Position numbers and translations under genes: made by a program. From NCBI GenBank assembly GCA_009746045.1, contig RPFO01002049.1, positions 1 to 64,000 of the forward strand: a stretch of DNA of 64,000 bases. The letters run 5' to 3'. Under the pieces are notes generated by a model. That model was not told where the DNA came from and did no database searches. It saw nothing but the letters and a program-made list of their open reading frames with translations. The DNA is from Mesostigma viride. Its lineage: Eukaryota; Streptophyta; Mesostigmatophyceae; Mesostigmatales; Mesostigmataceae. Below, piece by piece: positions 1,902-63,169 of the stretch (the stretch's first letter is position 1; every line of letters starts with the position of its first letter).

Positions 1902-3158
1902 ACAGTTGTGTCACGGATGCGAGCTATGTCATCCGGCGGCGCCCACTATGCACAAGACCGGTGACGTGCGCAAGGAATTTGTTTTCTACGCATTTTCGAC
2001 AAAGGCTAGTGACCGGGGGGGACACTAGCACTTGCAGCATAAGAGCGGACGAAAGTGTACGTGCACGCGCGCCGGGCCAGGCACAGCTGGGCGCGCAGCA
2101 CTGACTTGAGCGGACGGCAGCACAAGTGCGCAGCGTCGAGAGGATCATACGCGTGTTAGTGGACAGCTGGAGCTGAAGCTGGACTGCTGGACTTCAACAG
2201 CGCCGAGGCTATTGACAGGCCAGGTGTCTTTGTGGTGTAGAATAGCGGGTCAACGTTATGAGGACTGGACAGAAAATGGAAAAGGACAATTTGCGGTGCG
2301 GAGCCAGATCGCTGGAATGAATGCGAAATCGCTGGCAGCCCTACAAAGGGATTTCTTCTAGAAAGGAACGATTAGACGCAATGTTTGCTGGGCCACTCAC
2401 ACGCAAGGTGTGAGCGTGCAGATTGTCTGAAGGATATTATGCTTCGACCTTGGTGGACGTGACTCAATGCCGGACATTCCCAGGGACAGAAATGCCGGAG
2501 CCTCTAGGAGATGAGATCGGCAACAGGGTAGCAATTTAGATTTGTCGGGATGCCTTCCTGCTTTTGTTGGCATGTGTGGTAGAAAGCCAGGACGGCAACT
2601 GGAATGCGGTTTCTATTTGCATGGTTCAGGCAGCAAGATAGTTTTGGCATTCCTGGCTGGACTGACAAGTGTGGCGTGTGTCATGCGTGTGGCATGACGA
2701 ATGGTTTGGTTCATAGTCGAAGAGGACTCTCACGCAGCGTGTAGTCTCTTCGAGTCTCTCGTTAGTGGCCTTCGTGTTTCTCCCTTTCCTTGGGAGCAAG
2801 GCCGGTAGCATGTCATGGAGCGCTGCCTAACTGCGGGCTCGTGAGCATGGAGTGCATCGATATTGAGACTATCAACGTGTTGTAATTGTATTAACTTTCT
2901 CAATAAATTCCGCATGTGCGGCTTCATCATCAGACTGTGCAAAGTGTGTGTTGTGAAAGCATTGTTCTATAGCAGGGGAGGCAAAAGCACCCTCTTGCAC
3001 CATCATATTGTCGCAATTAGAGTAGTTGGAGCGTCTAGCTAACGCCCCAGCAAGGATATTCAAACGCGGCACGCGACGGTACACAAGGGGATCAAGAAGG
3101 TGGTCATCAGGCACGAGGGACAGTTCCTTGTCCTCGGCTGAGAGCCCTCTTTTCATTA
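1902..3158 (+). repeat. 5' LTR, lacking its first ~130 bp
   Basis: Nearly identical to about 11622-12880. The first ~130 bp of the LTR as defined at the 3' side (11491-11621) are missing here and replaced by short GATACAAAGA repeats. The right end is CATTA at 3158; no canonical CA end is visible. The LTR also carries a 94-codon antisense open frame (3156-2872), conserved in the other copy because the LTRs are near-identical; it may be chance. Confidence 0.8.
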
Positions 3159-3316
3159 CTCGAAGAGACTAGCTCCATCTGCAAAGGAACATTTTCATTT
3201 CAGCAAAGAGAGACGGTGTGCAGTTTTCTGGGGAAGACTAGCACACATAGTGGCCTGATCAACCATTAAGTCTTTCAGATTAGACCGTTGCTACTTGGTA
3301 GTGGTTGTGGCAGTTT
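3159..3316 (+). other. leader between 5' LTR and gag
   Basis: About 160 bp of unique element sequence. A primer-binding site should lie here; a TGGTAGTGG stretch at 3296-3304 loosely resembles a tRNA 3'-end complement but sits too far from the LTR to be called with confidence. Confidence 0.35.
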
Positions 3317-6300
3317 ATGTCATATCACACTAGGTCGGTCACAGCGTTTTTGGCAAGCCACGCAGGCTGTGCCAACACGGGCGTCGACACCGACGGGCAG
3401 GAGCTCTCCAGGGTCGATACCACCATCAACATGTCAGGAACTGACCCCACAGCATCAGGCAGTGGTGGGTCAGCGCCGGCAGCTACGGGCGGTCAAGCAA
3501 CTGACCCGCCCAGCGGTCGTCTCGGCACTAGTGCGGACACCGCTTTGTTAGGTAATGGAGCGCCTTCCCTTTCTTCGGCAGGGGACGGTGGTGCTCTTAC
3601 CCAAGTGCTGCGCCTGCTGCAAGAGCAAGCGGCAGAGCTGGCGGCACTCCGAGCTCAGCAAGCGACGCAGTTATCGCAACAGGCGACGCTTGTTGAAGAA
3701 ACTGTGCGACTTGCTTTGGAGCGCGCGGAATCTACGGCTGAAGCGAGGCGTGCTACGGAGCGCGCTGAGCAACGGCGGCAGGCGGAGGCAACCACGGAAG
3801 CTGCACGCGCCTGCCAAGCTGCGGCCCAACGCGACGCCGAGGCCAGGCAGGCTGCCGACGAGGAGGCCGCTGCCGAGGAAGCGCGGCGACATGAGGCGCT
3901 GCGCGACCAACGCGGACACTTCGACGAAGAGCGCAGTGGGACAGGTCCACTACGCAACGTTGAGCCCAGTCAGCCACGCGTCGGACCAAGCGGTCAACGG
4001 CGGGGCGACGGGGAAATGGCGCAGGATGACGAGCTGCAGCCGAACGTCGGTCGGGTAGGCACCCGGTCGACTGCCGACGCATCTTATACGCTGGGGGGGA
4101 ACCTACGGGCACCCAACCAAGGCACGTTATCGTGGCGCGGCGGGTATGGTGCAGCCCCCAGGGGGGGAGCATCAGGTGGCTTGTTTAGCACAGGTCGGCC
4201 ACCCATGACGGCGGCAGCAACGCCGTTGGGTGGCACCGCAGGGCGGCCCAGGCTTGGCGGCACTCGGTCAGACTTCGGCTGGGGCCAAGTCGATCGGGAG
4301 GTAGCCAGCATACCATGGGGTGAGGGCGACGACGTCCAGCGACCCCACCGCATGCCGTACGGCGTGCATGGCGAATCCACTCGTGTGCCATCGCTGCCCA
4401 AGGTGGAGCTTCGCGAGAAGTTCACCTCAGCAGGCACGGGTGCGACTTTAGAGGAAGCCTATGAGCTCTTCCGAGCTCATTGTAACACTTATCGTTATGC
4501 CTCGGGGTATCCTCTTCGCCATGAGATGGTGATGGATTTTATTCACCTTTTTTTCCATGACCTGACCAAGAAGAAGGTCCAGGTTTTGGTCCAGCATTAC
4601 CGAGCGCTCGTGGACCGATGTCATCGCACGGACATATGGTTTGCGCTCACGGACATGGGCACACCGGATCTCGACTCGATCATCTTCGATGTCGACCCGG
4701 CAGAGCAGCTGTGGCAGCAACTGCGGCTGGAGTACCCAGTTGAGCACGTCAAGGCCATCGCGGAATGGAATGGAGCGTTCACCGTCGCCGAGGGTGAGGA
4801 TCCGGCTTTCTCCCTTGACCGGCTTCTCGCGTTTGCGGGCAAAGTGCCTGATTATACGCAGACCAAGGCTTGCCGGTTATGGCGGAGTGCAGTGCCCCTG
4901 CTGGCCATCGATCTTCCGGAGCCGCCCGGTGGGGAGTGGACTTTGGTGACTCTCTGTGCAGCATTCAAGCGGCTGCTCAGGAAGCGTGCGGAAGGCGAGA
5001 AGGGTATCTCGTCTGAGCTGGCTGAGATGCGCAAGAAGATGGCTGAGATGGAGAAGGCCATCGCGGTCAAGGGTGGCCAGCGGCTGCCTGGTGCGGGGCG
5101 CGGTGAATATGTCGGCACTCAGGGTGGTGGCAACGCCGGTCACGGGGGCAGCGGCGGTGGCGGTCAGGGTGGCAGTGGCGGTGTCAGTCGTGGTGGCGGC
5201 GGCAGTGGCTACGGTGGTCGGGGTCGCGGTGGTGGTCGAGGCGGAGGCGGTCGTCCGCCGTCATCGGATGGGACTCAGGAGGCGCAGGGCGTGCAAGGCG
5301 CGCTGGGCGCACCCACCCCGTCACGCGGTAAATGTTACCTTTGCGACAAGGATGGGCACCTTAGTCGCGAGTGTCCAAGCCGCTGCACGAAGCCGCATGG
5401 GGCAGACACGAAGTGGCACCTGATGAACAAGTGTCCAGCCGCGGGCATCAAGACGGTCCACTTCGCCGAGATGGCGGGCAAGACCGACTCGATGGAAGCC
5501 CAGGTGGCTGCCATCAAGCATGGTGAGGAGGCGACGGCGCCCCCCAACCAATTCGCGACGGTGTACCGGGAGGACCCATTCTGGGCGCCCATGCCGGGTG
5601 ACGTCGAGATCAACGCTGCGGAGGCTACCAAAGGCAAGCAGGCACGCAGCCCGCTTTCTTTTCAGCAGGCACCCATGTTGCCTGCCGGGCAGTTGCCCGC
5701 GTCCTTTTCCATGCCGCTGGCTGGGGTGCAATCTGCTTTTGAGCATGCGAACCCTGCTGGGCTGGAGCAGCGTAGGCGATTGGCGCCTGTGTACCCAATG
5801 CCGTTCATTGTGGACGTACCCATGTTTTCAGCACGGCAGGTGGTCGACACCTTCGGGCAGAAGGGGGTTGAGTGGCTGGGGTCGGTTGTGTCCGAGATCC
5901 AGTTGTTCGCAGATGGGCATGATGTGCGCACCTTGCGCAATTCTGAGTCCGTCACCTACGGGCGTCAGCCGGTAGAAGCCGCAGTGCCCGTGGTGCAAGC
6001 GGGAGTGGTCAGCACAAGTAGCCAGCAGCGCACTAGTGCAGTTCCCCAGGTTCCCACGGTGGTTCCATACCCCAATGGTGAGCCGTCCATAGCGTTCCAA
6101 GCAGTTGGAGCCTGTGGAGATGTATGGAGCGACATGGTGACATGTCCGTTGGTTGGCGCAGTCAAGCTTGATAGCGGTGCTCAGCCGCTAGTCATCAGCA
6201 CAGACTTGGCCACCATGCTGAACCTGACCTACGAGAACGGTGGCTTAGTGGAAAGCCCCGTGTCTGTGTCAGGTTGGCAGGGTCCGGCTAGTAAGCCGTA

Positions 6301-8161
6301 CGCTATGACGGCGGTTAAAGTCAACGTGATTTTCAATCCGTTGCGCGCCTCTAGCATGACCACCGTGTCCGCGTATGCGCTGGTGGTCAACAAGTGTGGA
6401 TATTCCGCACTACTCGGGGTGGATGTCCTTGCTCGCGCCATGGTTCAGGTGGACTATAGGGCGGAGGAGGCATCTTACATCCCTGATTGGGATGGGGCTG
6501 GCCTGAAGCGGGCCAGTGTGCCGGTCTCATGCTTCAGTTCTTCAGCCGGGGCTGCACGCCTCAACCCTTCAGCGGCTGCGGGCGTGGTGGAGGTCAGCAT
6601 GGTGGAGGTACGGGCGGCGGGCTCATCGGCGTGGGACAAGCATCGGACGGTGCTGCCTCAGCCAACGGCGAGCATTGCCAAGATGCGCACGCAGTGGTCG
6701 CTGGATGCTGTGACGTCCACGCGGCAGCTGGCTATGCGCAAGCGGGTGACTGAAGCCGTCATCACCATTCCTCAGATGGCCAGCCATGGCCTCACTTTGG
6801 TGCAACCGGGTGTCTCGGAGGCCCAAGGTAATTTTTCTGCTGCAATCTTACCGCAGGCCCCTGATTTTGCCAAGGGTGCGGTAGTGTTGGAACTGTTTGC
6901 GGGGATCGGAGGGGGCATTGCAGGCTTTTTGGCCGCAGGCGGCGTGTGCCGTAAACTCATCGCGGTAGAGCCATCGCACAAGGCGCGTCAGGTGTACTTC
7001 AGTCACTGTGGCGTGTTGTCGCGAGAGTATCCCGCGCAGTTTCCGCCATCAGCATGGCGTGACCCGTTTGGGGAATGTCCTCAAGATATCCGAGCCATCG
7101 GTGAGGTGCAGGTGCAGCAGTTGTTGCGCAGGCATCATGCCATCGACTTGGTAATTGCGGGTTGGGAGTGCCAGGGCCTGAGCCAGGCAGGGCAAGGGCG
7201 GGGGCTAGCCGATCCGCGTAGCGCGCTGTTCTGGGAACTGTTGCGTGTGGTGGGACTGTTGCAGTCGCGTCAGCCCCATCCGCCTGCGTATCTGTTTGAG
7301 AACGTTGTGGCGGGTGACAGCCCACATCAGGCGGTGCGGGAGGACTGGGCTACAATCGTGGCACTCCTGGGGGAGCCCATCGTGTGTGACAACGCAGGGC
7401 TGGGTGGGCTCACGCATCGTTTGCGTGCCTATTGGACCAACGTGGCGTGTGCGACCGGTGTGCAGGCGGTCTTAGGGGCCGTCGCAAGGCAGCATCCGAG
7501 TGTGTCTGCGGAGGTAGCATTGCCTTCCCACCTAGTCACGCAGAAGGTGGATAGCGAGGATCGCCCACCGTATGCACGCGTCAACCGGGTCGGGAGCCCC
7601 ATGTGTGCACTGCCGACCCTGGTCAGTTACCAAGGGTCGACAGCATACCGTGATCGGGGTAAGGGTCTCGTTTGGGACACTACCACCGGTCTGTTGGTGC
7701 AGCCACCCGCAGAATTTCGTGAGGCCAGCATGGGTTTTCATGTCGGGGCCTCGGCGCTGCCGGGCGTGCTCGAGAGTGAGCGCTGGTCTTTGATAGGCCA
7801 GGCTATGTCGGTGTTGCAGGTCGGGTATGTGCTGCTTGCATCGGTTGCCGTGCGCCAGTCTGGGGGGGCGTCCCCAGCCAATCCGCCTCAGCAGGTTGAG
7901 GCGCGCGCAGCCAAACTGAAGCGCCCTGCAGCGACGGGGACTTCATCAGCATGGGGGTGGCGTCTGCGACAGGTGTGGACTATCATTCTCATGACCGCCC
8001 TGCTGACCAGCACCGTGCTGGCCGGCGAGCCCACGCTGCATCGGGTAATACACCGGCGGCACGCGAGGCTCCGGCGGTGGGTGTCACACCAGGTGTGGCA
8101 GCCTTTTCCTTGTTCCACGACGATGCGGCTAGGGCGCCGCATCTTGAGGCACATGCGGTAG
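3317..8161 (+). CDS. Gag-protease-C5 DNA methyltransferase polyprotein of Ty3/gypsy element
   Basis: The frame is open from 3305. The first ATG is 3317; an alternative ATG at 3431 starts MSGTDP. Order: an Ala/Glu/Arg-rich coiled-coil-like N part (about 3590-3930), a capsid-like helical region (4384-4990), a Gly/Arg RGG-like linker (5110-5260), a CX2CX4HX4C zinc knuckle (5333-5376), then a retropepsin-like protease with LDSGA (Asp codon 6170) and a distal LLGVDVL motif (about 6410). A C5-methyltransferase domain follows (6860-7860): motif I LELFAGIGGG (6887), motif IV with the catalytic Cys in ECQ (Cys codon 7169), ENV motif VI (7298), HRLR motif VIII (7415), a target-recognition region, a PAEFREASMGF-like motif IX and motif X IGQAM (7793). 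The frame ends at 8161 and overlaps the RT frame by 262 nt, so a -1 shift is needed to reach RT. The methyltransferase is an unusual passenger in a gypsy element. Confidence 0.88.
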   Translation: MSYHTRSVTAFLASHAGCANTGVDTDGQELSRVDTTINMSGTDPTASGSGGSAPAATGGQATDPPSGRLGTSADTALLGNGAPSLSSAGDGGALTQVLRLLQEQAAELAALRAQQATQLSQQATLVEETVRLALERAESTAEARRATERAEQRRQAEATTEAARACQAAAQRDAEARQAADEEAAAEEARRHEALRDQRGHFDEERSGTGPLRNVEPSQPRVGPSGQRRGDGEMAQDDELQPNVGRVGTRSTADASYTLGGNLRAPNQGTLSWRGGYGAAPRGGASGGLFSTGRPPMTAAATPLGGTAGRPRLGGTRSDFGWGQVDREVASIPWGEGDDVQRPHRMPYGVHGESTRVPSLPKVELREKFTSAGTGATLEEAYELFRAHCNTYRYASGYPLRHEMVMDFIHLFFHDLTKKKVQVLVQHYRALVDRCHRTDIWFALTDMGTPDLDSIIFDVDPAEQLWQQLRLEYPVEHVKAIAEWNGAFTVAEGEDPAFSLDRLLAFAGKVPDYTQTKACRLWRSAVPLLAIDLPEPPGGEWTLVTLCAAFKRLLRKRAEGEKGISSELAEMRKKMAEMEKAIAVKGGQRLPGAGRGEYVGTQGGGNAGHGGSGGGGQGGSGGVSRGGGGSGYGGRGRGGGRGGGGRPPSSDGTQEAQGVQGALGAPTPSRGKCYLCDKDGHLSRECPSRCTKPHGADTKWHLMNKCPAAGIKTVHFAEMAGKTDSMEAQVAAIKHGEEATAPPNQFATVYREDPFWAPMPGDVEINAAEATKGKQARSPLSFQQAPMLPAGQLPASFSMPLAGVQSAFEHANPAGLEQRRRLAPVYPMPFIVDVPMFSARQVVDTFGQKGVEWLGSVVSEIQLFADGHDVRTLRNSESVTYGRQPVEAAVPVVQAGVVSTSSQQRTSAVPQVPTVVPYPNGEPSIAFQAVGACGDVWSDMVTCPLVGAVKLDSGAQPLVISTDLATMLNLTYENGGLVESPVSVSGWQGPASKPYAMTAVKVNVIFNPLRASSMTTVSAYALVVNKCGYSALLGVDVLARAMVQVDYRAEEASYIPDWDGAGLKRASVPVSCFSSSAGAARLNPSAAAGVVEVSMVEVRAAGSSAWDKHRTVLPQPTASIAKMRTQWSLDAVTSTRQLAMRKRVTEAVITIPQMASHGLTLVQPGVSEAQGNFSAAILPQAPDFAKGAVVLELFAGIGGGIAGFLAAGGVCRKLIAVEPSHKARQVYFSHCGVLSREYPAQFPPSAWRDPFGECPQDIRAIGEVQVQQLLRRHHAIDLVIAGWECQGLSQAGQGRGLADPRSALFWELLRVVGLLQSRQPHPPAYLFENVVAGDSPHQAVREDWATIVALLGEPIVCDNAGLGGLTHRLRAYWTNVACATGVQAVLGAVARQHPSVSAEVALPSHLVTQKVDSEDRPPYARVNRVGSPMCALPTLVSYQGSTAYRDRGKGLVWDTTTGLLVQPPAEFREASMGFHVGASALPGVLESERWSLIGQAMSVLQVGYVLLASVAVRQSGGASPANPPQQVEARAAKLKRPAATGTSSAWGWRLRQVWTIILMTALLTSTVLAGEPTLHRVIHRRHARLRRWVSHQVWQPFPCSTTMRLGRRILRHMR
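6860..7860 (+). other. C5 cytosine DNA methyltransferase domain inside gag-pol
   Basis: Listed separately because it is the unusual module. Motifs I, IV, VI, VIII, IX and X occur in canonical order within about 330 residues, the normal size of a bacterial-type catalytic domain. Motif IV reads GWECQGLSQAGQGRGL: the nucleophilic Cys and following Gln are kept, but the usual Pro before Cys is Glu. A SAM-binding FxGxG-type loop is intact. There is no stop or frameshift inside the domain, so it looks recently maintained. The expected reaction is transfer of methyl from SAM to C5 of cytosine; sequence specificity cannot be inferred. Confidence 0.88.
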
Positions 8162-10524
8162 CTGTGGGTGATCCCGCGGATACGCACCCCTGGGCTATTG
8201 GCGAACACCTTTCTGATGCGCAGCGCTCAGCCATGCTAAAGTGGCTAGGCACTGCAAGGGGGGCCTTCGCTTTCACAAGTGATGAACTGGGGTGTTTCAA
8301 TGGTGGGACCATGCGTGTTCCATTGGACACTGACACTCCTTTGTTCCGACGCCAGCATCGCCTGAGTCAGGCCGAGTTGGATTTTGTAGCCGAGCAATGC
8401 AAGGAGTTAGAGGATGCCGGTATCATCAGGCAATCTTCCTCCAGCTATGCTGCTGCCGTTGTCGTTGCGCCCAAGAAGGACGCTATCACCGGGGCATGGA
8501 CGGGTATGCGCATGGCCACCGATCTGCGGTTGCTGAATGCACACACACCCGTGGACCGTTACCCCATGCCACGTGTGGATGATGTCCTGGATAAGATATC
8601 TCCTCATGTGAAGTTTGTGTCCTCGCTGGACCTGCGTAGCGGCTTTCATCAGATCGCAGTTGCGCCGGAGGATCAGCGGAAGCTTGCATTCTGGGGGGGC
8701 GGCAATTTGTATGAGTGGGTGCGCATGCCCTTTGGGCACCGCAACGCTAGTGCTGTTTTCCAACGAGCTATGGACAAAGTGCTTGCAGGTCTTCCTTTCG
8801 CCGCTTGTTACATTGATGATGTAATCGTCTTTAGCGCGACATTTGAGGAGCACCTGGCGCACTTGGAGCAGGTTCGCTTGGCTCTCGAGGAGCATAATAT
8901 GCGGCTGCACCCTGAGAAGTGCAAGTTCGCCCAGCGGACCCTCTCATTCCTTGGTCATCAGATTGTGCCGGGTGGCCGGACGCCTGATGCCGCCAAGGTC
9001 GAATCCATTGCGCAGGCCGCCGTACCCACGGATGTCTCAGGGGTGCGGGCGTATTTGGGTTTGGCTGGCTATTACCGAGGTTACATTGAGAACTTCAGCA
9101 GCAAGGTGAAGCCCTTGACCGAGTTACTCAAGAAGGGGTGCGTGTGGGCGTGGGGTCCCGCACAGCAACGCGCCATCGAGACAATCAAGCAGGAGCTCAC
9201 GTCGGCACCGATTCTGCGCGCCCCTGACTATGCTTTGCCATTTGTGTTATATACCGACTGGTCCAAGGTAGGACTGGGTGCGGTCTTGGCGCAAAAGGAT
9301 GGTGATGGGCGCGAGCACGTTATTGCTTATGCTAGTCGCAGCAACAACCCAGCGGAGAGCCGGTATTCTTCCTATGAGGGGGAGGCACTGGCTGTGGTGT
9401 GGGCCATCAAGCACTTTCGCCCGTATTTATTTGGGCGCGTGTTTACTCTGGTGACAGACCACCAGCCGCTTCAGTGGCTAATGACCAACACCAACCTGAC
9501 GGGTAAGCTCGCCCGATGGGCCATGATTATCCAGGAGTACCACATGACCATTGTGCATCGGGCCGGCAAGGACCATGTCAACGCCGATGTGCTATCCCGA
9601 TACGCCATGCCTACCACTGTTGACCACACTGGAGCCCGGGCCATGGGTGCCGAGGGCTCGTCTGGTTCTGTGGTCTTTGTGAACGCTGCTGGGTATGCGG
9701 CCGACGATGAGGAGGAGGCGTGGTGGCGCAGTGTCGAGTACTCTGTGGCGGACTTCGGCATCAGCGACGACCCGGTGCGGCCGTCGCCATTCACGCCATC
9801 CAAAGCTGTGTGCGCTATGGAAGAGGGTAGGTCTCTGTCCTTTGACATTGATCCTTCTCTGCAGCAGCTGATCGCTGTGCAGGCTCTCTTAGCGCGTAGC
9901 TCTCTTGCTGATTGCTACACCGCTGATATCTGGCTAGATGGTCGAGTGTTGGAGCAAGTGCAGGGTGCTGTCTTGACTCCTACTCCAGTCGATTGGACTC
10001 CTGCTCAGAAGGCAACGGAGTTGAACAGGGTGCAGCACAGGGCTGCAACCTATGGTTGGGAAGATGGGGTTTTGTACAAGCTGTTGGGCAAGCGTAGGGT
10101 GGTCGTCCCACCGCCTGACAAGCGCGTTGCTATAGTGCAGGCGTACCACGAGCGGTATGGTCACTTGGGTGGCAATCGCACGCTCAGCCTCGTACGGACC
10201 AGCTATTGGTGGAATAACATGCGACACACGGTGGCCCAGGTAGTGGCCAGCTGTGTCCCGTGTGCTCGAACCAAGGCTAACTTTAGCGCAGATCATGGTG
10301 CCAAGGAGCTGATGTCGCTTCCCATCAAGGGCTTGTTTTATCGCTGGCACGTCGATCTGTGCGGGCCGTTTCAGGAGAGCCCTGACGGCAACCTCTATGT
10401 CATGGTATGCGTGGAGAGCTTTAGCAAATGGGTTGAGTTGATCCCCATTGCTGACAAGCATGCCGCTACCACAGCGAAGCATTTTGCGGACATCATACCA
10501 GGTTTGGGGCTCCCGCGGAGGTAG
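7900..10524 (+). CDS. Reverse transcriptase-RNase H-integrase (N part) of Ty3/gypsy element
   Basis: Open in frame +1 from 7900; the first ATG is 7951, but expression more likely needs a -1 shift from the preceding frame. RT spans about 8340-8980 with RMATDLRLLN, SLDLRSGFHQI and the catalytic YIDD (8809-8820). A gypsy-type RNase H follows with the first Asp in TDWSK (9256), a central YEGEALAVVW and TDHQPLQW. The integrase zinc-binding HHCC module lies at about 10141-10270 (HERYGH, then CVPC). The integrase core starts with WHVDLCGP (about 10347) and the frame ends in TAG at 10522. The rest of the core continues 1 nt out of phase from about 10500, so a single-base loss or sequencing error around 10497-10500 splits the integrase. 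Confidence 0.9.
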   Translation, partial: GARSQTEAPCSDGDFISMGVASATGVDYHSHDRPADQHRAGRRAHAASGNTPAAREAPAVGVTPGVAAFSLFHDDAARAPHLEAHAVAVGDPADTHPWAIGEHLSDAQRSAMLKWLGTARGAFAFTSDELGCFNGGTMRVPLDTDTPLFRRQHRLSQAELDFVAEQCKELEDAGIIRQSSSSYAAAVVVAPKKDAITGAWTGMRMATDLRLLNAHTPVDRYPMPRVDDVLDKISPHVKFVSSLDLRSGFHQIAVAPEDQRKLAFWGGGNLYEWVRMPFGHRNASAVFQRAMDKVLAGLPFAACYIDDVIVFSATFEEHLAHLEQVRLALEEHNMRLHPEKCKFAQRTLSFLGHQIVPGGRTPDAAKVESIAQAAVPTDVSGVRAYLGLAGYYRGYIENFSSKVKPLTELLKKGCVWAWGPAQQRAIETIKQELTSAPILRAPDYALPFVLYTDWSKVGLGAVLAQKDGDGREHVIAYASRSNNPAESRYSSYEGEALAVVWAIKHFRPYLFGRVFTLVTDHQPLQWLMTNTNLTGKLARWAMIIQEYHMTIVHRAGKDHVNADVLSRYAMPTTVDHTGARAMGAEGSSGSVVFVNAAGYAADDEEEAWWRSVEYSVADFGISDDPVRPSPFTPSKAVCAMEEGRSLSFDIDPSLQQLIAVQALLARSSLADCYTADIWLDGRVLEQVQGAVLTPTPVDWTPAQKATELNRVQHRAATYGWEDGVLYKLLGKRRVVVPPPDKRVAIVQAYHERYGHLGGNRTLSLVRTSYWWNNMRHTVAQVVASCVPCARTKANFSADHGAKELMSLPIKGLFYRWHVDLCGPFQESPDGNLYVMVCVESFSKWVELIPIADKHAATTAKHFADIIPGLGLPRR

Positions 10525-11459
10525 TCACGGACCAGGGTGGTGAGTTCAGGGGTGAGTTCCAGGAGTTGCTGGATGGATGTCTTATTGATCACCGTCGCAC
10601 TTCTCGGGAGCATCCTCAGGCCAATGGTTTGGCTGAGAGATTGGTGCAGACCGTCAAGCAGGCGCTGCGCAAGTGGAGCCTGCAGGTGCCGGAGTCGGCC
10701 AGGTGGGATCGCGAGTTGGCATGGATTGCCATGGGTTATCGCATGTCTCCCCAGGAGTCTCTCGCTACCTTCTCCCCGTATTTCCTTCTGTTCGGGCGTA
10801 ATCCTCTTTTGCCTACGGAGGCACAGGTTGCGCACCCCGAACCCATGGCCTTCGACAACGCTCAGCAATTTTTGGTTGAGGTGCTGGCCAGGGCAGAGAC
10901 TTTTAAGAAGGTCATGCCCATCGCGATGAACAACTTGTTCATTGCTCAGCACAGGGACTCCCTGCGTTACGCTCAGCGCCGGGGGGGCGCATACATGGCT
11001 CGCCAGCTGCGGTTTAGGCCAGGGCAGTATGTTTTCCTGCGCACTCAGCTGAAGCACACTTTGGATGTGGAGGCGGGGCCCACCATTTTGCGCATTGTGG
11101 CTATCAAACCATCGGGAGTGGCAATTTTGGAGGGCGCCGACGGGAGCCGTACGACTGACAACCTCAGCAATCTCAGTCCCTGCTCGCTGCCCAATTTGGT
11201 CCACGACCTCCAACCGCACACGTCTCGCCGAGTCAAGGACGCCCAGTGTCAGGTTTGTCACCGGGTCGATCAGGCGGAGTCCATGTTATTGTGTGATCAG
11301 TGTAACTGTGGTTGGCACATGCAGTGCTTGCAGCCAGTGGTCACCAGCATTCCGGAGGGGGATTGGTTTTGTCCAGTGTGCACCGCTGCGCAGTTTACCT
11401 CCCGCAGCTTGACTGCGGTCACCGCTGCCCTTGTCTTGGTACGATCGCTGTCTTCGTGA
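10501..11459 (+). CDS. Integrase C-terminal part with PHD finger (frame-broken continuation)
   Basis: Continues the integrase core in the third frame: VVTDQGGEF (second catalytic Asp, about 10530), then HPQANGLAERL with the catalytic Glu (about 10610-10640). An integrase C-terminal barrel-like stretch follows (RFRPGQYVFLR, about 11010). The extreme C terminus (11240-11395) is a PHD finger in C4HC3 order: CQVC, CDQC, GWH, C, then WFCPVC. Chromodomains are the usual C-terminal chromatin module of gypsy integrases; here a PHD finger holds that position and could target chromatin marked at histone H3 tails. The stop is TGA at 11457. There is no independent ATG before 10566, so this is part of pol. 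Confidence 0.85.
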
Positions 11460-11475
11460 TGGGGCCGGTCGCCAG

Positions 11476-11490
11476 CGAGGGGGGGAATCA
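11476..11490 (+). promoter_or_regulatory. polypurine tract
   Basis: CGAGGGGGGGAATCA immediately before the TG that opens the 3' LTR. It is the plus-strand primer site expected for LTR elements. Confidence 0.75.
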
Positions 11491-12880
11491 TGGGACAGGT
11501 CCTCGCCCACCCCACAGGGCATGCAGTTAAGGCAGGCACGTCAGCTCAGCTCATTTGGGTTTTACCAAATTAAGCTGAGTGGCCAGCCGCCATGGTGGCG
11601 CCGGAGATTGTGGCACGCAGACGCGACAGCTGTCACGGACGCGAGCTATGTCATCCGGGCGGCGCCCACTATGCACAAGACCGGTGACGTGCGCAAGGAA
11701 TTTGTTTTCTACGCATTTTCGACAAAGGCTAGTGACCGGGGGGGACACTAGCACTTGCAGCATAAGAGCGGACGAAAGTGTACGTGCACGCGCGCCGGGC
11801 CAGGCACAGCTGGGCGCGCAGCACTGACTTGAGCGGACGGCAGCACAAGTGCGCAGCGTCGAGAGGATCATACGCGTGTTAGTGGACAGCTGGAGCTGAA
11901 GCTGGACTGCTGGACTTCAACAGCGCCGAGGCTATTGACAGGCCAGGTGTCTTTGTGGTGTAGAATAGCGGGTCAACGTTATGAGGACTGGACAGAAAAT
12001 GGAAAAGGACAATTTGCGGTGCGGAGCCAGATCGCTGGAATGAATGCGAAATCGCTGGCAGCCCTACAAAGGGATTTCTTCTAGAAAGGAACGATTAGAC
12101 GCAATGTTTGCTGGGCCACTCACACGCAAGGTGTGAGCGTGCAGATTGTCTGAAGGATATTATGCTTCGACCTTGGTGGACGTGACTCAATGCGGACATT
12201 CCCAGGGACAGAAATGCCGGAGCCTCTAGGAGATGAGATCGGCAACAGGGTAGCAATTTAGATTTGTCGGGATGCCTTCCTGCTTTTGTTGGCATGTGTG
12301 GTAGAAAGCCAGGACGGCAACTGGAATGCGGTTTCTATTTGCATGGTTCAGGCAGCAAGATAGTTTTGGCATTCCTGGCTGGACTGACAAGTGTGGCGTG
12401 TGTCATGCGTGTGGCATGACGAATGGTTTGGTTCATAGTCGAAGAGGACTCTCACGCAGCGTGTAGTCTCTTCGAGTCTCTCGTTAGTGGCCTTCGTGTT
12501 TCTCCCTTTCCTTGGGAGCAAGGCCGGTAGCATGTCATGGAGCGCTGCCTAACTGCGGGCTCGTGAGCATGGAGTGCATCGATATTGAGACTATCAACGT
12601 GTTGTAATTGTATTAACTTTCTCAATAAATTCCGCATGTGCGGCTTCATCATCAGACTGTGCAAAGTGTGTGTTGTGAAAGCATTGTTCTATAGCAGGGG
12701 AGGCAAAAGCACCCTCTTGCACCATCATATTGTCGCAATTAGAGTAGTTGGAGCGTCTAGCTAACGCCCCAGCAAGGATATTCAAACGCGGCACGCGACG
12801 GTACACAAGGGGATCAAGAAGGTGGTCATCAGGCACGAGGGACAGTTCCTTGTCCTCGGCTGAGAGCCCTCTTTTCATTA
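11491..12880 (+). repeat. 3' LTR
   Basis: About 1390 bp, beginning TGGGACAGG right after the polypurine tract and ending CATTA. From about 11622 it matches the 5' copy almost base for base. Its first ~130 bp (11491-11621) are absent from the 5' copy but present again downstream at 12885-13024. Confidence 0.8.
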
Positions 12881-12884
12881 GTCA

Positions 12885-13024
12885 TGGGACAGGTCCTCGC
12901 CCACCCCACAGGGCATGCAGTTAAGGCAGGCACGTCAGCTCAGCTCATTTGGGTTTTACCAAATTAAGCTGAGTGGCCAGCCGCCATGGTGGCGCCGGAG
13001 ATTGTGGCACGCAGACGCGACAGT
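12885..13024 (+). repeat. extra partial LTR copy (LTR start only)
   Basis: A near-exact repeat of 11491-11630 (TGGGACAGG through GACGCGACAG) placed 4 bp after the 3' LTR. It gives an A-B-A arrangement that a simple LTR element does not have; LTR-LTR recombination or a tandem insertion followed by deletion would produce it. Confidence 0.75.
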
Positions 13025-13118
13025 TGTATAGTGATACAAAGACAACGTGAGGCATACCCTGATACAAAGACTCTAAAGACCTATGTGTGGAAAACCCTAT
13101 ACGTTCAGGGCCTAGTGT

Positions 13119-14012
13119 CGGAGCATCCTGGTAACGGTCCGTGCCGTTCAGCCGTGTGGCCAGCGTGTCCGTGAGCGTCCATGCCTCGGCGCCATAGGTG
13201 AGCACCGTGAGGACCAGGACCTTAAAGAGTGCATTCGCTTGCGGTGCTCGCCCAGGTCCTTCGAGTGCCAGTATAGGGTTTGAGCGAACGAAGCCTAGCC
13301 CAGGCCAATGCGGATGTCCACATCGTGGGCGGTGTCAGGGAGCCTGCTCCCCAGCAGTTTGAAGCGATCACGGAACTCGACCTCCTTCCCGTCGAGTGCA
13401 GCCGGGGCTTCGGCGGGGAACTGGTAGCCCCAAGGCACCATCGCCTCAGTGTTGACACTAATCTTAACCCCACCGCCCACGCCTCCAAGCCCGGCAGACA
13501 GTCCAGCCATGGGTCTGAATGTGCTCGATCGGGGCGCCCGATGAGCTGGGTGGTATCATCCGCATAAATCAGGTCGGACACTGAGGCGGTAACCAGGGCC
13601 ACCGCCGCCATATTCACGATCGTTAAGGATGTCCAAGCCGGGCTCGAACCCCTTCTTAAGCTAGAGCAGTAAAGCGTGCACAGTGCCTGGCGCATGACGT
13701 GATCCACGACAATAATGATCAGGTATGGGGACAGGACACAACCTTGCCACACCCCGTGGTGAAGGGGGAATGGTGGGGTGGTGCTGGGGTGGTGCCTCCC
13801 GCAGTCCGCACTACCATGCCTGTGAGCCCTCATACAGCCCCGGGCGAATGGCAGCAACAAACGCTGGGGGCACGCGATCCAGAGCTACAGGATGGCCCAA
13901 AGAGCCTCCCAGAGGACCGTGTCGAAAGCCTTGATATAGTCAACAAAAATGAAGACCAGCGGAAAACCATCAGGGCAAATGCGACGCACCTCCTCCATCA
14001 GTGTTGACACTG
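13119..14012 (-). pseudogene. LINE ORF2 reverse transcriptase fragment (5' half of the split LINE)
   Basis: Minus-strand pieces in several frames: VDYIKAFDTVLW (about 13960-13920), GVWQGCVLSPYL (about 13760), LIYADDTTQL (about 13570-13540) and YGAEAWTL (about 13190). Frames are broken and the 5' part (endonuclease) is missing. It ends where the C-terminal half at 1858 would continue, so the two pieces are probably one LINE split by the gypsy insertion. Confidence 0.75.
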
Positions 14013-14394: not shown

Positions 14395-14451
14395 ATTAAT
14401 GAAACTCGTGCTCCCGTTAGGGAGTCATGGAGTATTAACCCCGATCAACGA
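14395..14451 (-). mobile_element. LINE 3' tail adjoining the (GGGA)n array
   Basis: TTAATTAATG tail plus the conserved block containing CTCGTGCTCCCGTTAGGGAG, then ATTAACCCCGATCAACGATGG. This places the array at the position where other copies carry a few GATG units. Confidence 0.75.
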
Positions 14452-16140
14452 TGGAGGGAGGGAGGGAGGGAGGGAGGGAGGGAGGGAGGGAGGGAGGGAG
14501 GGAGGGAGGGAGGGAGGGAGGGAGGGAGGGAGGAGGGAGGGAGGGAGGGAGGGAGGGAGGGAGGGAGGGAGGGAGGGAGGAGGGAGGGAGGGAGGGAGGG
14601 AGGGAGGGAGGGAGGGAGGGAGGGAGGGAGGGAGGGAGGGAGGAGGAGGAGGGAGGAGGGATCGAGGGAGGGAGGGAGGGGGGAGGGAGGGAGGGAGGGA
14701 GGGAGGAGGGAGGGAGGGAGGGAGGGAGGGAGGGAGGGAGGGGGGAGGGAGGGGGGAGGGAGGGAGGGAGGGAGGGAGGGAGGGAGGGAGGGAGGGAGGG
14801 AGGGGGGAGGGAGGGAGGGAGGGGAGGGAGGGAGGGGGAGGGAGGGAGGGAGGGAGGGAGGAGGAGGGAGGGGAGGGAGGGAGGGAGGGAGGGAGGGGGA
14901 GGGAGGGGAGGGAGGGAGGGAGGGAGGGAGGGAGGGAGGGAGGAGGGAGGGAGGGAGGGAGGGAGGGAGGGAGGGAGGGAGGGAGGAGGGAGGGAGGGAG
15001 GGAGGGAGGGAGGGAGGGAGGGAGGGAGGGAGGGAGGGAGGAGGGAGGGAGGGAGGGGGGAGGGAGGGAGGGAGGGAGGGAGGGAGGGAGGGAGGGAGGG
15101 AGGGAGGGGAGGGAGGGAGGGAGGGAGGGAGGGAGGGAGGGAGGGAGGGAGGGAGGGAGGGAGGGAGGGAGGGAGGGAGGGAGGGAGGGAGGGAGGGAGG
15201 GAGAAGGGAGGGAGGGAGGGAGGAGGGAGAGGAGGGAGGGAGGGAGGGAGGGAGGGAGGGAGGGAGAGGGAGGGAGGGAGGGAGGGAGGGAGGGAGGGAG
15301 GGAGGGAGGAGGGAGGAGGGAGGGAGGGAGGGAGGGAGGAGGGAGGGAGGGAGGGAGGGAGGGAGGGAGGGAGGGAGGGAGGGAGGGAGGGAGGGAGGGA
15401 GGGAGGAAGGGAGGGAGGGAGGGAGGGGAGGAGGAGGGAGGGGAGGGAGGGAGGGAGGGAGGGAGGGAGGGAGGGAGGGAGGAGGGAGGGAGGGAGGGAG
15501 GGAGGGAGGGAGGGAGGAGGGAGAGGGAGGGAGGGAGGGAGGGGAGGGAGGGAGGGAGGAGGGAGGGAGGGAGGGAGGGAGGGAGGAGGGAGGGAGGGAG
15601 GGGGAGGGAGGGAGGGAGGGAGGGGAGGGAGGGAGGGAGGGAGGGAGGGAGGGAGGGAGGGAGGGAGGGAGGGAGGGGGGAGGGAGGGAGGGAGGGAGGG
15701 AGGGAGGGAGGGAGGGAGGGAGGGAGGGAGGAGGGAGGGAGGGAGGGAGGGGAGGAGGGAGGGAGGAGGGAGGAGGGAGGAGGGAGGGAGGGAGGGAGGG
15801 AGGAGGAGGAGGGAGGGAGGGAAGGGAGGGAGGGAGGAGGAGGAGGGAGGGAGGGAGGGGGAGGGAGGGAGGGAGGGAGGGAGGGAGGGAGGGAGGGAGG
15901 AGGGAGGGAGGGAGGGAGGAGGGAGGGAGGGAGGGAGGGAGGGAGGGAGGGAGGGAGGGAGGGAGGGAGGGAGGGAGGGAGGGAGGAGGGAGGAGAGGGA
16001 GGGAGGGAGGGAGGAGGAGGGAGGGAGGGAGGGAGGGAGGGAGGGAGGAGGGAGGAGGGGGGAGGGAGGGAGGGGAGGAGGGGAGGGAGGGAGGAGGGAG
16101 GGGGGGAGGGAGGGAGGGAGGGAGGGAAGGAGGGAGGGTG
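14452..16140. repeat. (GGGA)n giant polypurine array
   Basis: About 1.7 kb of GGGA units with scattered GGA and GGGGA variants, and almost no pyrimidine on the plus strand. It ends at ACACAGTCCTACCGGTCTAA (16163-16182), the same block that follows the short (GATG)n in the LINE tail at 21500-21545. Long GREG and PPSL open frames are artefacts. The tract could form triplex or quadruplex structures. Confidence 0.97.
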
Positions 16141-16559
16141 GGTGGTCCCGAGGGAGGGAACACACAGTCCTACCGGTCTAAATTCTATCTATATTTGATG
16201 GAGATGGGCCGGACCCTAGCTCGATCACCCCGGGTTTTAATTAAACACGTGCTCCTGTTGGGGAGTCACGGAGTACATACTATAACCCGGCCAATGGATG
16301 GATGGGTGTCCAGATGGACGTACAATCCTACCGGTCTATTGTATCCATCTAATGCCTAATAAAGTAAGAAATTGTAAATTGATTATCGGAGGGGCATGCC
16401 ACTTAGCGCCTAGTTCTAGTGGTCAACACCGAGCGTTCTTCCCACGGTGGGTGACGCGCCTTTTCCCCACTGAGGGGGGATCGTTGTCCTCTACCGGCAC
16501 TGACCTGCGGCGCAGCATTGGCCTTGTTCTGCATCTTTTTCCGTATCACGGAGAGCCGG

Positions 16560-21599: not shown

Positions 21600-24500
21600 C
21601 TAGGGGAGCTGTCTGGCGTGCCTCCCGCGGGTTTGCACACGCGGGCGCTTCCCCACGGGGGGGGGCTCGTTGTCCTCTATGACCTGGGCCCACTTGGCCT
21701 TGTCCATCATCTTTTTCCAAATCACGGAGAGGGCCGCCTACTAGGCCCCCCATGTCCTCTACTAGCTGTTCTTTGAATGTGCGGGCCTTGCGGCGTCTAA
21801 CATCACGGGGCCCGGCCCACGTCAGGACGTGCCGGCCAGGCTGGGCTGGTCGCAGTCCCGCGGGGGGGCCACGTGAGTTGTCTACCTGGTTGGTGCGAGC
21901 TAGGTGCCCTACGAGCTGCAGGTGCCGCTGCTTAGTGCCAGGTGCTGGTGATATATGGCATGCCAAGGTACAGGTCCTCATGGCGGACGTGCGCAGCATA
22001 TCCTACTCTGAAAATGGATCGCAGCATGTTGGTGACCGCGCCGTCTAGCTAATGCGGGCCAGGTCGGCGGTAAGGGTCCACGGCTCGGCCCCATACGTAA
22101 GAACAGGATCGAAGGACGAGGACCTTGAACAGGTCCTGTTTCTCGATCTTGCCCAGGGGCTTGCGCCACAGGGCCCGGTATTGGCGTAACGCGTGCCAGG
22201 CAAGGGAGATGCGGTGGTCCACATGCATCAGCCTCGCAGCTGGGGAGCAGGCTGCCCAGCAGCTTGACACGGTCCCGATACAGGACTCGAGAGCCGTCAA
22301 GGAGAAGGAGGGGTGGCGGTGGGTGGGTGAGCCCAATCGCCAGAGCCTCTGTCTTCTTGCTGACCTCAAGCCCCACTGCACGGGCCTCGATAGCCAGGCA
22401 GTCAAGCCACGTCTGCACGTGCCCAGTGTCCTCGAAGAGGGTGGTGTCGTCTGCGTAGATGATGTCCGCCAGCCGAATCTCCGTGTCCGCTCCGCCATGC
22501 CAGAAGTGGTTAGCAACCTGCACCCCTGGTTCCCTACCCACGATGCGGGCAAATCGCTCGCGCGCCTGAATCATTACGTATTCGACCACAATGAACAGGT
22601 AGGGCGACAGCACGCAGCCCTGCCACACACCCTTCTGTAAAGGGCATGGTGGCGTGGTCTCGTAAGAAGTGCGCACCGAAGTGGTGGACCCTTCATACAG
22701 GTTGCGGATGACAGCAATAAGGGGGCGGGGGATCCGGAACAGCTCGATCGAGGATGTCCCAAAGCGCAGGCCAGAAAACCGAATCGAAGGCTTTGATGAA
22801 GTCCACCAGCACAAGGTGCAAAGGGGACTCACCAGGCTGAAGGCGTTGCAGTTCCTCCACAAGTCGGCGAGTAGCGAAGAGCGCCGGTACTGTGTTGCGA
22901 CCTGAACGGAAGCCGTGCTGAGTCTCGCTGAGGTGACCGTCCAGGGCCGTGCGCAGGCGCGGGTTCAGGATGAGCCGCATAAGAAGCTTGAGGGGGGCAC
23001 TTTGAATGCACACCCCTCTGTAGTTGCCGGGGATCCTGGCGACCCCTTGTTCTTGTATACAGCATCGTGCGAAAACTGTGTTGCCAGGCGGCGCTGGAGG
23101 CGGTTGCGACGACAGCAGAAGGCGGTTGCAGATGTCGATCCCGGAAGAGCAGCATAACACCGGTGTCCTCAAATTCGGCTGCAAGTTTCACAACTGCATG
23201 CGGCAGGAATCTCGTCGGAGCCGGTGGATGCGTCATAACGCAGACGCTGGACCGCCTCCGTGACCTCGCGAGAGGTGAAAGAAGGCATGTCTGACGGGTC
23301 GCCAAGTGGGCCGATCAGCCGCGGGGGGACTCCGTAGTCCGCCGCTGACCTAGGCGGGGCCGGGGGCCCAGCGGGGCCGGCCAGGGCAGCCGGGCGGGCG
23401 GGCGGCGGCTGGGAGCAGGGGCGGGGGCGGCGCAGCTGTCCCCACGACCTCGGCCGTGGCCGCGGCCCAGGTACGAAGCCGCTTGGCTGGGGCGCCAGGG
23501 ACGTCGTGGCGATGGGGCCGGCCGAGGCCGTCCGGGTGCCCGAGGCGCTTGTACCAGAACCAGGCCCCCTTGCCGTCGTGCTTCTGCTGGCAGCTGCGCA
23601 GGTCCTTGACCATCTGCTGAGCGTCTGCCTTCTCAGCCTGCTCGTACATAGGCGACCCGCAGAGCCGCTTGCAGCCCAGGTTTGGCGGTCGGGTCCCTGT
23701 TGCGGCGGAGCATCTGCCTAGCGGCGACCACTGTCGGTGCGTGGCGGTGGACAGCAAGCTGCCGGCGCGAAGGCAAGGAGGGGAGGGTGCGGGCAGCCAG
23801 ACGGTATACTTGGCAGCGATACCGCGGAGGATCATGCACTGAGATATCACCCGGCGGCGGAATGGCGTGTAACTGCTGGCGGCTGCCCCTGGCGTCGAAG
23901 ACTGCCAGGAAGTCGTCCCGGTGCGACATAGCGGCCTGCTCTTCTGCTGACATCTTGTCGGCATCCTTCAGTACAATCCGGAGCACCTTGAGATCTGGCT
24001 GAGGCGCCAGTTGTCGCGACGGTTTCACGCCAGGAAACCGCAATCTGATGCGAGCGATCGAGCACGAGACGGTGGTCAGATTCCACCGTGCTGACAGAAT
24101 CTTGCATCACGCAAGCATCGACAACTGAGGGGCGCTGAGCCCGGCGTACGCAGATATAGTCAAGGCGCACCACCCGATCCGACGGCCCAAAAAAGGTGGC
24201 AAGCTGCTCAGTGGGGCGTGCGAAAGAAGCATTGCAGGCAACTAGCGCAGATTCTGCCAGCAGATTCGCAAATAAAGCCGTGTTACCATTGGCTGTCGTG
24301 TTGGTTGGGGAGTACTGAGCGCCCCAAATGCCAACTGGCAGCGTGGCGTTGGCGTCGAGCAGCTGCCATAACCAGGAAGTGCCGAGCTGGGATGTTGGCC
24401 TCCTCCTCCTTGAGGGCGTTGAAGAAGGCCTCAAGTACTCCTCACGTTCCGCCTGAGCTCGACCAGTGTATGTGGTGCATATGTATCCCACGATAACGGT

Positions 24501-25235
24501 TATAGCGTGTGGTGTGAATGGCCCTCCGCATTGCATGGCCGAAAAAGTGGCCACTATCCACGCGGGGATCGCAGCAGGATGGACTGGAGGTGCTCTGATG
24601 CTGCCGGTGAGCACAAGAGGCCCACACCACCTTGACCCGGCGCGTCGCCTCCGCCATACTGTAATGGAACCGCCAGCCCGCACGAAGGTCGTCGACCAGA
24701 AGGCCGTTGACCCCTTGCTGAGGGTCGACGGTGCGTGACTCGGCATGCTCCTGGACCCCGAGGACCGCGATCTTGTTGTCGGCGCACAAGGCGATCAGCT
24801 CGTCGACGCGGTGGCGTGCTGGGGTGCCGCCGCTCGTAGAAGGATCTGCAGGGAGGGTGCGCACATTAAAGCTTGCAATACCAAGAATGGGCCGTTGCCC
24901 TATTAGCGGGGGGGTGGGGGTGGAGGTGGGGGTGGAGAAGGGTAGTGCTGGAGGTGGGGGCACCTGGGGGTGGAGGGGGTGGGGGAGGGGGGGGTGGCGA
25001 TTGGGGTTAATGCTTGTCAACGCATGGAGTCTTTCTTTCAGGGCGGATATGCGTCGTCTCCGTCCTGTCTGGGGTTGCCGGCGTGTCCACTGAGCCTCAT
25101 CCCGCTCAAGGCGGGCCACTGGGAGGCGTTTGAGGCTGGTAAACTGGCGGGAAGGTTGACCGTGGCGTGCCTGGCGACCTTGCATCCTGGTCATGCTCGC
25201 ACGGTGCGACATGAGGATGGAAAGGGGCTTGTTTA
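21600..25235 (-). pseudogene. LINE ORF2 (APE endonuclease-reverse transcriptase), copy 2
   Basis: Minus strand. Pro-rich linker (about 24995-24905), endonuclease start PILGIASFNVRTLP (about 24895), VQEHAE (about 24750), DYICVRRAQ (about 24160) and SDHRLV (about 24070). RT: NYRGVCIQSAPLKLL (about 23020), HGFRSGRNTV (about 22910), DFIKAFDSVFW (about 22790), GVWQGCVLSPYLF (about 22625) and the catalytic IIYADDTTLF (about 22465-22435). The C-terminal block HLQLVGHLARTN (about 21915) and MMDKAKWAQVIEDNE (about 21700) follow. Two or three frame changes interrupt the protein, so this copy is probably inactive. It is an APE-type non-LTR element; the simple-repeat tail recalls RTE/CR1-like clades, but the clade was not determined. 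Confidence 0.78.
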
Positions 25236-27139
25236 TCAAGGGGACATGACACCCGGGACTTTTTTGGCGCCAAAAAAGTCGGGACGGTACCGACAGACCG
25301 TGAAATTGTGGTGCACAGTGCGCGCACCGTGCGGAGGTGGCCATGGCGACGGGCGTTCCGTTAAAATATGGCTAATCCGGCGGGCGACAGGCGAAAAAAT
25401 TAAGCCGATGGTTAAAAGTGATGTTCTATTATGATGTTTCATATAGCCAGATCTGCACTATTTGCAAATTCGCTGCCTTTGTTAGTACAGATTTGTGCAC
25501 GGGGGTCTCATCCAACAATTTGGCCGCGATGAATAATCTAGCATGCGTGCCTGTGACGGTAGAACTCGATATTCGTGGGTTATATTGAGGCAGCAAGAGC
25601 CGTTTAGTAACGGACACCATGAAAATAACCTAAGCGTCTTCGATCTGCGGCCATTTCCTGTCATTTCTAAAATGTCAGATTTCGTTCAGGCCTGCGCGAT
25701 CCGCGGTTAACTGATCCATCCATGGCTGGCTGGCTTTTCTTGCGCGCCTGGGTAGGAAATAATGCCGGCCGTGGAACGTTGATTTGCCGCATGTCACCGC
25801 CCAGTCTGTTTGCGCTGGCATGAACCTGGCATGAAACTTTTGGCGCCGTTTCTGGGTTCTTCTTGCTATTTTGTTTTCCACTTGTTGCAGTTGTGCTATC
25901 AGATTTTCCGCAGCTTTCAATGGTTTTCCTTACGCTGCGTATGCCATGCTTCCTAACTAAAGCTACCCAGAATTGATCGGGCAGTTATCTGGCTTTGCTA
26001 CGCTTCCTGTATCAGTGGACGTTTTCACACGGTAGACATTCTATATTGCGTAGTCAAGGACCCTAGCTGCCTGGGAGCGGCATCACCGTTGCAAGGAGCT
26101 GGCGAGCTCATAAACGCCTGTCATGGCTCTTCAGCCTGCTGGAAAACAAGGTTGTTGCATGGAAGGTGAGAATATGTGAGTTACTTATCACATCCCCACC
26201 TGTTTAGCCTCCATTAAACATGGCTTGTACTTCCTAGATGACAGGGATCAGGTCGTTATGACTATGAAGGATGCACCTTTTATCCATAAGCGTCATGACA
26301 TGGTGTTGGCTATGAGTGATTCCCGCAAGCGGTCATACCTGCTCATAATGGTTAAAGAGTTGGTGGTTGTTTTCTTCAAGCATCTAGCATTTGTTTTTCG
26401 TGGTTCTGCCCTATTTGCAGGGGGCAAGCTTAGGAATGTGCTCATGGTATCGCCTCATGTCATGGTGCACCAAGCATGCAGGCTGGCAGCTATAACAAGA
26501 TGTAATATGGGCAAACTAGGTCAGAATGACTTGTAATTTGGTGGCTTAAGCTTCGTGATACAAATTAATGAATTGCAATTGTTTTGGCCCAGTTTGTGGT
26601 GGGCAAGGGTGTCTTTGGAGTGTTGTTTGTGCTCAAAACTGCTTTTTTTTCACATGACCATATTTCAATGTGGGTAAACGTGGTCAGAATGAGCTGAAAC
26701 TTTGGGGCTGTGTGATTGCAACCCTGGGCCAGTTTTGAATATAAGATTTGACCCCATTGCATGTGTCTATGATTTGATATATTTTTTTAGGCACCAAAAA
26801 ATACGTGTTTTGGGCTAAATTATTTCAATGTGTCTAAACATGCTTATTCTGACCTGCAAACTAGCTACAAGTAATGGCAAGGATTGCAATTAGATGGGAA
26901 TATATGATTTGGCCACATTGGGTTTGCCCATTGTCCTAGGGAAAATCGGCCAAAAATAGCATCTTTTTCTATTTTTAGCTCATAACGGTCACATGGTGGG
27001 GGGTAGTACCCCCCCAAGTGGTTAGAAAAAAATTTTTTTAATCATATTTATGGTCCCCCATCATAACTGGATTTTTATCACATGCCTAGGTATGGTTTCC
27101 AGAAAAGTGCCCTTTTGGTGTGTCTTGTCCCCATTCATA
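25234..27139. mobile_element. terminal-inverted-repeat DNA element (1.9 kb), TA target duplication
   Basis: Copy 1 of the LINE is continuous where this segment interrupts copy 2. The element ends are imperfect inverted repeats: TCAAGGGGACATGACAC at 25236 and, reading inward on the other strand from 27137, TGAATGGGGACAAGACAC; the similarity extends loosely through an ACTTTT-containing block. TA flanks both sides (25234-25235, 27138-27139). No transposase is recognised; the two longest frames inside (25920-25675 minus, 26225-26536 plus) match nothing I know. It is probably non-autonomous, Tc1/mariner-like by target site only. It contains a perfect 22-bp palindrome centred on GGCGCC at 25258-25279. 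Confidence 0.65.

Positions 27140-39916: not shown

Positions 39917-54692
<14,776 letters not shown>

Positions 54693-55462: not shown

Positions 55463-63169
<7,707 letters not shown>

Follow-up and report, generated by a model that had tools for sequence, protein, structure and literature searches.

The element and its coding regions

The window, a stretch of 64,000 nucleotides from the unicellular streptophyte alga Mesostigma viride (assembly GCA_009746045.1, contig RPFO01002049.1, positions 1 to 64,000 of the forward strand), holds at 1909-13022 a Ty3/gypsy-type retrotransposon that is present in many copies and was recently inserted, and whose first open reading frame (ORF) includes a complete C5 cytosine methyltransferase domain, assigned to the DNMT3 class by sequence profile and predicted fold. 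The features of this copy, in window coordinates, are:

1905-1908: target-site duplication (TSD), left copy, GTTG (4 bp)
1909-3158, + strand: repeat A1, starting TGTCACGG and ending CATTA, 99.76% identical to A2
3159-3304, + strand: leader after A1 (A1/internal boundary CATTA/CTCGAAG), beginning with a presumed primer binding site, placed from position only
3305-8161, + strand: ORF1 (1618 aa; ORF list, Pfam), with gag-like part, CCHC knuckle, protease-like motif and DNMT3-class methyltransferase in a single frame
5327-5380, + strand: CCHC zinc knuckle of gag (PF00098, aa 675-692, E 2.3e-4, above cut-off)
6161-6193, + strand: protease active-site-like motif VKLDSGAQPLV (DSGA), by eye
6860-7858, + strand: C5 cytosine methyltransferase domain (333 aa), complete and of the DNMT3 class by profile and fold, with the catalytic Cys within AGWECQGLSQAG (7157-7192)
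7951-10524, + strand: ORF2, in a frame different from that of ORF1, with reverse transcriptase (RT; YIDD at 8809), RNase H, integrase zinc domain and start of the integrase core
10566-11459, + strand: ORF3, in the third frame, with the remaining integrase core and a PHD finger (11247-11381; PF00628, E 1.1e-9)
11475-11488, + strand: purine-rich tract GCGAGGGGGGGAAT, presumed polypurine tract, abutting B1
11489-11628, + strand: repeat B1, ending GCGACA
11625-11634: B/A boundary palindrome GACAGCTGTC, whose halves match the outer ends of the element
11631-12880, + strand: repeat A2
12881-13022, + strand: repeat B2 and its joint to A2, 99% identical to B1, ending GCGACA at the right end of the element
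13023-13026: TSD, right copy, GTTG

The order protease, RT, RNase H and integrase, with a gypsy-type RNase H and an H2C2 integrase domain in the Pfam scan, is that of the Ty3/gypsy elements, and a short TSD of the kind they produce, 4 bp in length, is present in 11 of 11 copies read at both ends. The same long terminal repeat (LTR) at both outer ends, a further mark of this group, is not seen: in the resolved copies, C133 excepted, the left end is A and the right end A-B or B. The repeats are not ordinary LTRs, and the coding part terminates in the PHD finger, two points in which the original prediction is corrected. The window copy is young, since its A repeats differ at just 3 of 1250 positions (one substitution and two 1-base indels), and its ORF is 100% identical, across 77% of the query, to the gene model Mesvir1 in EukProt (P0001).

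It had also been predicted that the methyltransferase lies in one frame with gag, between protease and RT; the gag-like part, knuckle, protease-like motif and methyltransferase do share one ORF, while the RT lies in another frame. The motif VKLDSGAQPLV, which resembles a protease active site, was assigned by eye; no protease family of Pfam matched the window copy, and PF13650 or PF13975 is present in some relatives. ORF2 matches PF00078, PF17917, PF17919 and PF17921 above their cut-offs. The frame shifts once after the methyltransferase and again inside the integrase; in another copy (L033) the methyltransferase leads into the RT without a frame change. At E 0.01 none of the three ORFs matches a tyrosine recombinase family. 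The nearest PDB sequences to the PHD finger are those of BAZ2B and BAZ2A, whose PHD fingers bind unmodified histone H3.

The methyltransferase domain

The PF00145 (DNA_methylase) profile matches ORF1 at aa 1194-1334 with E 5.5e-11 and 42.9 bits against a cut-off of 22, so that the hidden Markov model search proposed for the translation of 6860-7860 gave a significant result, and the claim of a complete C5 methyltransferase in a gypsy-type polyprotein is borne out. This match spans model positions 3-111 of 324 only, and the full domain is covered by the alignment of relatives, the DNMT3A profile match and the fold model. In the profile comparison DNMT3A and DNMT3B rank first, DNMT3A being matched in three ordered stretches that correspond to motif I (weak), the central part and motif X. 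C5 enzymes have one fold in common; the AF2 model of the domain is confident, and its closest solved folds are those of DNMT3A and DNMT3B, whose Z scores exceed those of M.HhaI and DNMT1 by about 3 to 4 units. By sequence profile and predicted fold the domain is thus of the DNMT3 class, the solved enzymes nearest to it being DNMT3A and DNMT3B, from which it differs in its low identity (17-24% in structural alignments) and in ECQ in place of PCN.

A search with residues 1180-1530, in which 7981 candidates were scored, yielded 14 proteins, namely the window's own gene model and 13 relatives at 29-40% identity, most of them with gypsy-type Pfam domains and one from Monoraphidium neglectum. In the alignment of these with the window's gene model, the catalytic Cys, the E-N of ENV and the two Arg of motif VIII (RxR) are invariant in all 14 domains. 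In motif IV of C5 cytosine methyltransferases a Pro precedes the catalytic Cys; the original prediction had read PCQ here, while the actual window sequence is AGWECQGLS. Neither ADD nor PWWP domains were found beside the methyltransferase in the Pfam scan of the ORFs. Because the fold also occurs in viral enzymes (a phage enzyme being the best match, E 1.4e-15), the domain may have come from a virus; the sequence profile favors DNMT3. A domain-profile scan of IMG/VR gave 61 loci, none of which matched the window RT or integrase at E 1e-3. Four of the relatives (P0007, P0008, P0012 and P0013) have in common, beyond the PHD finger, a further stretch that looks by eye like another methyltransferase-like fold.

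Copies, subfamilies and selection

The genome searched was an assembly of 439.9 Mb in 2243 contigs, with 195 exact matches to a 28-mer at the RT active site. Among the first 24 of these RT copies, those on contigs C1 to C224, 23 keep the methyltransferase domain: 21 have a partial-profile match upstream (two of these matches lie ~10.7 kb off with inserted DNA between, and may represent a single locus present on two contigs), two have the domain DNA with damaged frames, and one (C209) is without it. The domain is therefore not a single chance insertion, and the copy count, which had been proposed as a check, came out in favor of the prediction. In a DNA search in which the best 40 of 315 candidates were scored, 40/40 span the domain end to end, a figure that leans upward because the 40 are the top matches.

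At least two further M. viride subfamilies exist, with domains 66% and 75% identical to that of the window. PF00145 matches at 44.1 bits were considered as copies of the window family and rejected; they represent the second subfamily, the one at 66% identity. Between the three subfamilies pS is 0.71-0.76, near saturation, pN is 0.18-0.27, and dN/dS is about 0.07-0.13 where computable; a copy with an internal stop gives about 0.7 against subfamily 2, and two near-identical family-2 copies give 0.43 on few changes. These sequence comparisons indicate that the methyltransferase is under purifying selection. The relatives have the domain at one of two places: after the protease and ahead of the RT, or after RNase H and ahead of the integrase. 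The RT tree parts the two groups, the second being well grouped (97/93) and the first less firmly (80/85). Both trees are midpoint-rooted, and the domain tree, built from retroelement domains alone, has good support at 2 of its 13 inner branches. Methyltransferases may have been captured by these elements once or twice.

Repeats, ends and joints

The window copy has the order A1-int-B1-A2-B2 (int, internal region), with A repeats of 1250 bp and B repeats of ~140 bp, outer ends TGTC...GACA and an inner B/A joint GACA-GC-TGTC. An exact 23-mer across this joint occurs 241 times in the genome (reversed control, 0), and the start of A1 is common to 14 copies of the window's own family (family 1, window included) with different flanks. 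Most copies have the same A-int-B-A-B order, known as split direct repeats. The 4-bp TSD stands exactly at these ends in all 11 copies read at both ends (8 of family 1, 3 of family 2), and such duplications flank A-int-B-A-B copies and also two A-int-B copies.

End counts for family 1 rest on 21 copies, including the window, picked by their methyltransferase match. Their left ends are flank/A in 14, flank/B-A in one and an upstream tandem unit in one, with five unresolved (two N, one truncated copy, two not found); their right ends are B1-A2-B2 in 10, B1 alone in two, B1-A2 alone in two, beyond the piece read in one and not found in six. The corresponding figures for family 2 (n=10) are flank/A in six and none or partial in four on the left, and B1-A2-B2 in eight (two with partial B2) and none in two on the right. 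One copy, C133, is B-A-int-B-A with no evident TSD, as if a linear cDNA had been captured; a tandem array was rejected for it on account of this order. The left end on C140 and the right end on C111 may belong to one tandem-dimer insertion with the TSD CAAT, a pair left out of the 11 duplication-bearing copies. In the 5'-truncated copy L059 (C224:2934357) six bases remain past A2 at the right end, like an uncut cDNA end.

Since the purine tract abuts B1 and A1 stops at the start of the internal region, ordinary reverse transcription would yield (B-A)-int-(B-A), and the A2/B2 joint would therefore unite the two ends of the cDNA. Eight near-identical family-2 copies have seven forms of this joint, at least five if the length of an A-run is ignored; ~140 bp of the A end are lost in one, the G-run of the purine tract is kept in one, and two or four additional bases are present in two copies. 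Such variability is expected of joined cDNA ends, from which we infer insertion by way of a circle.

Insertion route and role of the methyltransferase

The best joint explanation, to which we assign a probability of about 0.6, is a gypsy element whose DNMT3-class enzyme would methylate new cDNA or the insertion site, whose integrase would be guided by the PHD finger, and whose insertion would proceed from a circle. Reverse transcription would give a linear (B-A)-int-(B-A) molecule of the ordinary kind, whose two ends would then be joined to a circle, and the integrase would open this circle at the GACA/GC/TGTC palindrome within the repeat; joined concatemers would do as well as integrase substrate. 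A narrower claim, held more tentatively and at somewhat less than even odds, is that a DDE-type integrase uses the circle as its regular substrate: opening of end-joined cDNA at the palindrome ~140 bp inside the repeat would result in A-int-B-A-B with 4-bp duplications, the split direct repeats would be a by-product, and the methyltransferase of the element might label the one of the two identical sites that is cut. The enzyme, within Pol or cleaved from it, would act in the particle on new cDNA or on DNA adjoining the insertion, so that the methylated new copy would mimic host chromatin or evade a defense, while the PHD finger would steer the integrase toward a chromatin state. For the enzyme, methylation of this kind is the simplest role, given its class and its position in Pol, and methylation by the element of its own DNA, or of that of the host, is plausible. 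A methylation role of like kind was proposed for Dnmt3 elements in passages of de Mendoza et al. 2018 (PMC5890265).

Several observations weigh against this joint explanation. The A-B-A-int form was found at none of 20 resolved left ends, though a circle has two equal B/A sites. The A2/B2 joint of family 1 is almost constant, TTA/ATCATGG in 19 of 23, two of which may be one locus (at 20 further joint places, three lay past the contig end and 4 of the 17 remaining pieces were without a joint), and inheritance would account for this equally; three of the seven family-2 forms differ in A-run length alone, where assembly error is possible. The integrase core in ORF2 (PF00665, E 0.0014) is under its cut-off because the frame change splits it, that in ORF3 (PF13683, E 0.003) is likewise under cut-off, but PF00665 is among the domains of 11 of the 13 relatives. 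As to the enzyme, the residue before the catalytic Cys is Glu in 11 of the 14 domains (9 ECQ, 1 ECN, 1 ECR), no CpG loss was seen (observed/expected 0.76-0.92 in six element parts vs 0.64-0.87 in five stretches elsewhere in the window), and the enzyme of a Klebsormidium nitens gypsy element gave no methylation in yeast, a result that its authors call inconclusive, as human DNMT3B failed too (passages of PMC5890265).

The near-constant family-1 joints would also be explained if the inner B1-A2 served as template for a DIRS/PAT-like circle, through which the A-int-B-A-B order would be inherited instead of being rebuilt by end joining. PAT, Ngaro and VIPER elements have the same repeat order (passages of PMC4157794 and PMC6681497), and the repeats of the K. 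nitens element, KnitGypsy-Dnmt3, are said to resemble those of DIRS (passages of PMC5890265). The seven joint forms of family 2, the lack of a tyrosine recombinase match at E 0.01 in ORF1 to ORF3 and the 4-bp TSDs all argue against such inheritance, which we regard as unlikely yet the best placed of the alternatives. DIRS/PAT elements, to our knowledge, make no TSD, and one is present in all 11 Mesostigma copies read at both ends.

Less probable still is that the methyltransferase fold was retained without DNA methylation, the domain serving Pol by binding nucleic acid or having RNA as its substrate. The Glu in place of Pro, the undiminished CpG and the yeast result with its authors' reservation all fit this proposal, against which stand the invariant Cys, EN and motif VIII Arg and the three domains with PCQ (P0006, P0008, P0014). 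That the enzyme works mainly in trans on host or rival DNA, for instance by silencing competitors or easing the host response, is an improbable variant: 5-methylcytosine is widespread in M. viride DNA, mainly at CG (passages of PMC6947507), but the present data fit cis and trans alike, and a domain inside Pol would presumably travel with the cDNA. A host methyltransferase gene inserted by chance in a single copy can be dismissed, given the retention in 23 of 24 copies and the domain's presence in 13 other proteins.

Other features of the window and the genome

Ten loci, L001-L010 (G000 contigs C1468, C35, C47, C64, C79, C340, C389, C815, C1517 and C1809), hold full-length C5-methyltransferase ORFs that stand alone and are 364-387 aa long; L002-L010 are near-identical across at least 1.9 kb, and a viral origin would be a guess. 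In the window, adjoining ORFs at 44672-48202 (+) resemble by eye the RT and RNase H of a DIRS-type element or one of another type, and ORFs at 21978-25344 (-) and 13222-13860 (-) resemble, again by eye, RT and endonuclease of the long interspersed nuclear element type. Long simple-repeat arrays at 20-871, 14399-16198, 49450-51055 and 57651-59777 give rise to large spurious ORFs, several of the four being open in more than one frame.

Relation to known elements

A gypsy element with Dnmt3 in its Pol ORF and a DIRS-like repeat arrangement was published by de Mendoza et al. in 2018 from K. nitens, and the Mesostigma element is thus not a new kind. According to passages of that paper (PMC5890265), which also confirm the captures of methyltransferases in algae and dinoflagellates named in the original prediction, KnitGypsy-Dnmt3 shares with it the Dnmt3-class domain in a gypsy Pol ORF, a streptophyte alga as host, purifying selection and DIRS-like repeats. 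The two differ in host, and the comparison is one by published description, not sequence; the PHD finger, the motif IV Glu, the 4-bp TSDs, the GACAGCTGTC boundary and the variable A/B joints are features read here in the Mesostigma element. SymbioDIRS-Dnmt3, whose enzyme was active in yeast, likewise has Dnmt3 in Pol and A-coding-B-A-B repeats, but is of DIRS type with a tyrosine recombinase (passages of PMC5890265). The JGI protein P0014 starts with the same DNMT3-like domain, and the RT that comes next looks DIRS-like by eye (cf. SymbioDIRS-Dnmt3). PAT, Ngaro and VIPER show the order A1 ... B1-A2-B2 and are tyrosine-recombinase elements as well (passages of PMC4157794 and PMC6681497); the Mesostigma element has split direct repeats as they do, with integrase domains and TSDs instead of the recombinase.

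On retrotransposons that carry a DNA methyltransferase, PMC5890265 alone was found in a literature search whose coverage leaves out most subscription journals; within the same coverage, the titles and abstract openings name no gypsy DNA methyltransferase from green algae, Mesostigma included, and the passages of PMC6947507 at hand contain none of Mesostigma and the word gypsy 0 times.

Circular cDNA as an integrase substrate was once discussed, then set aside, for retroviruses; if the reading of the repeats given here is true, these elements are a natural test of its use. Being multi-copy and under selection in Mesostigma, methyltransferase-carrying gypsy elements appear to be more than one alga's oddity. 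Related proteins are found in Monoraphidium and in public contigs as well, and with the copy number and the selection this suggests that a silencing-type enzyme has long been useful to these parasites.
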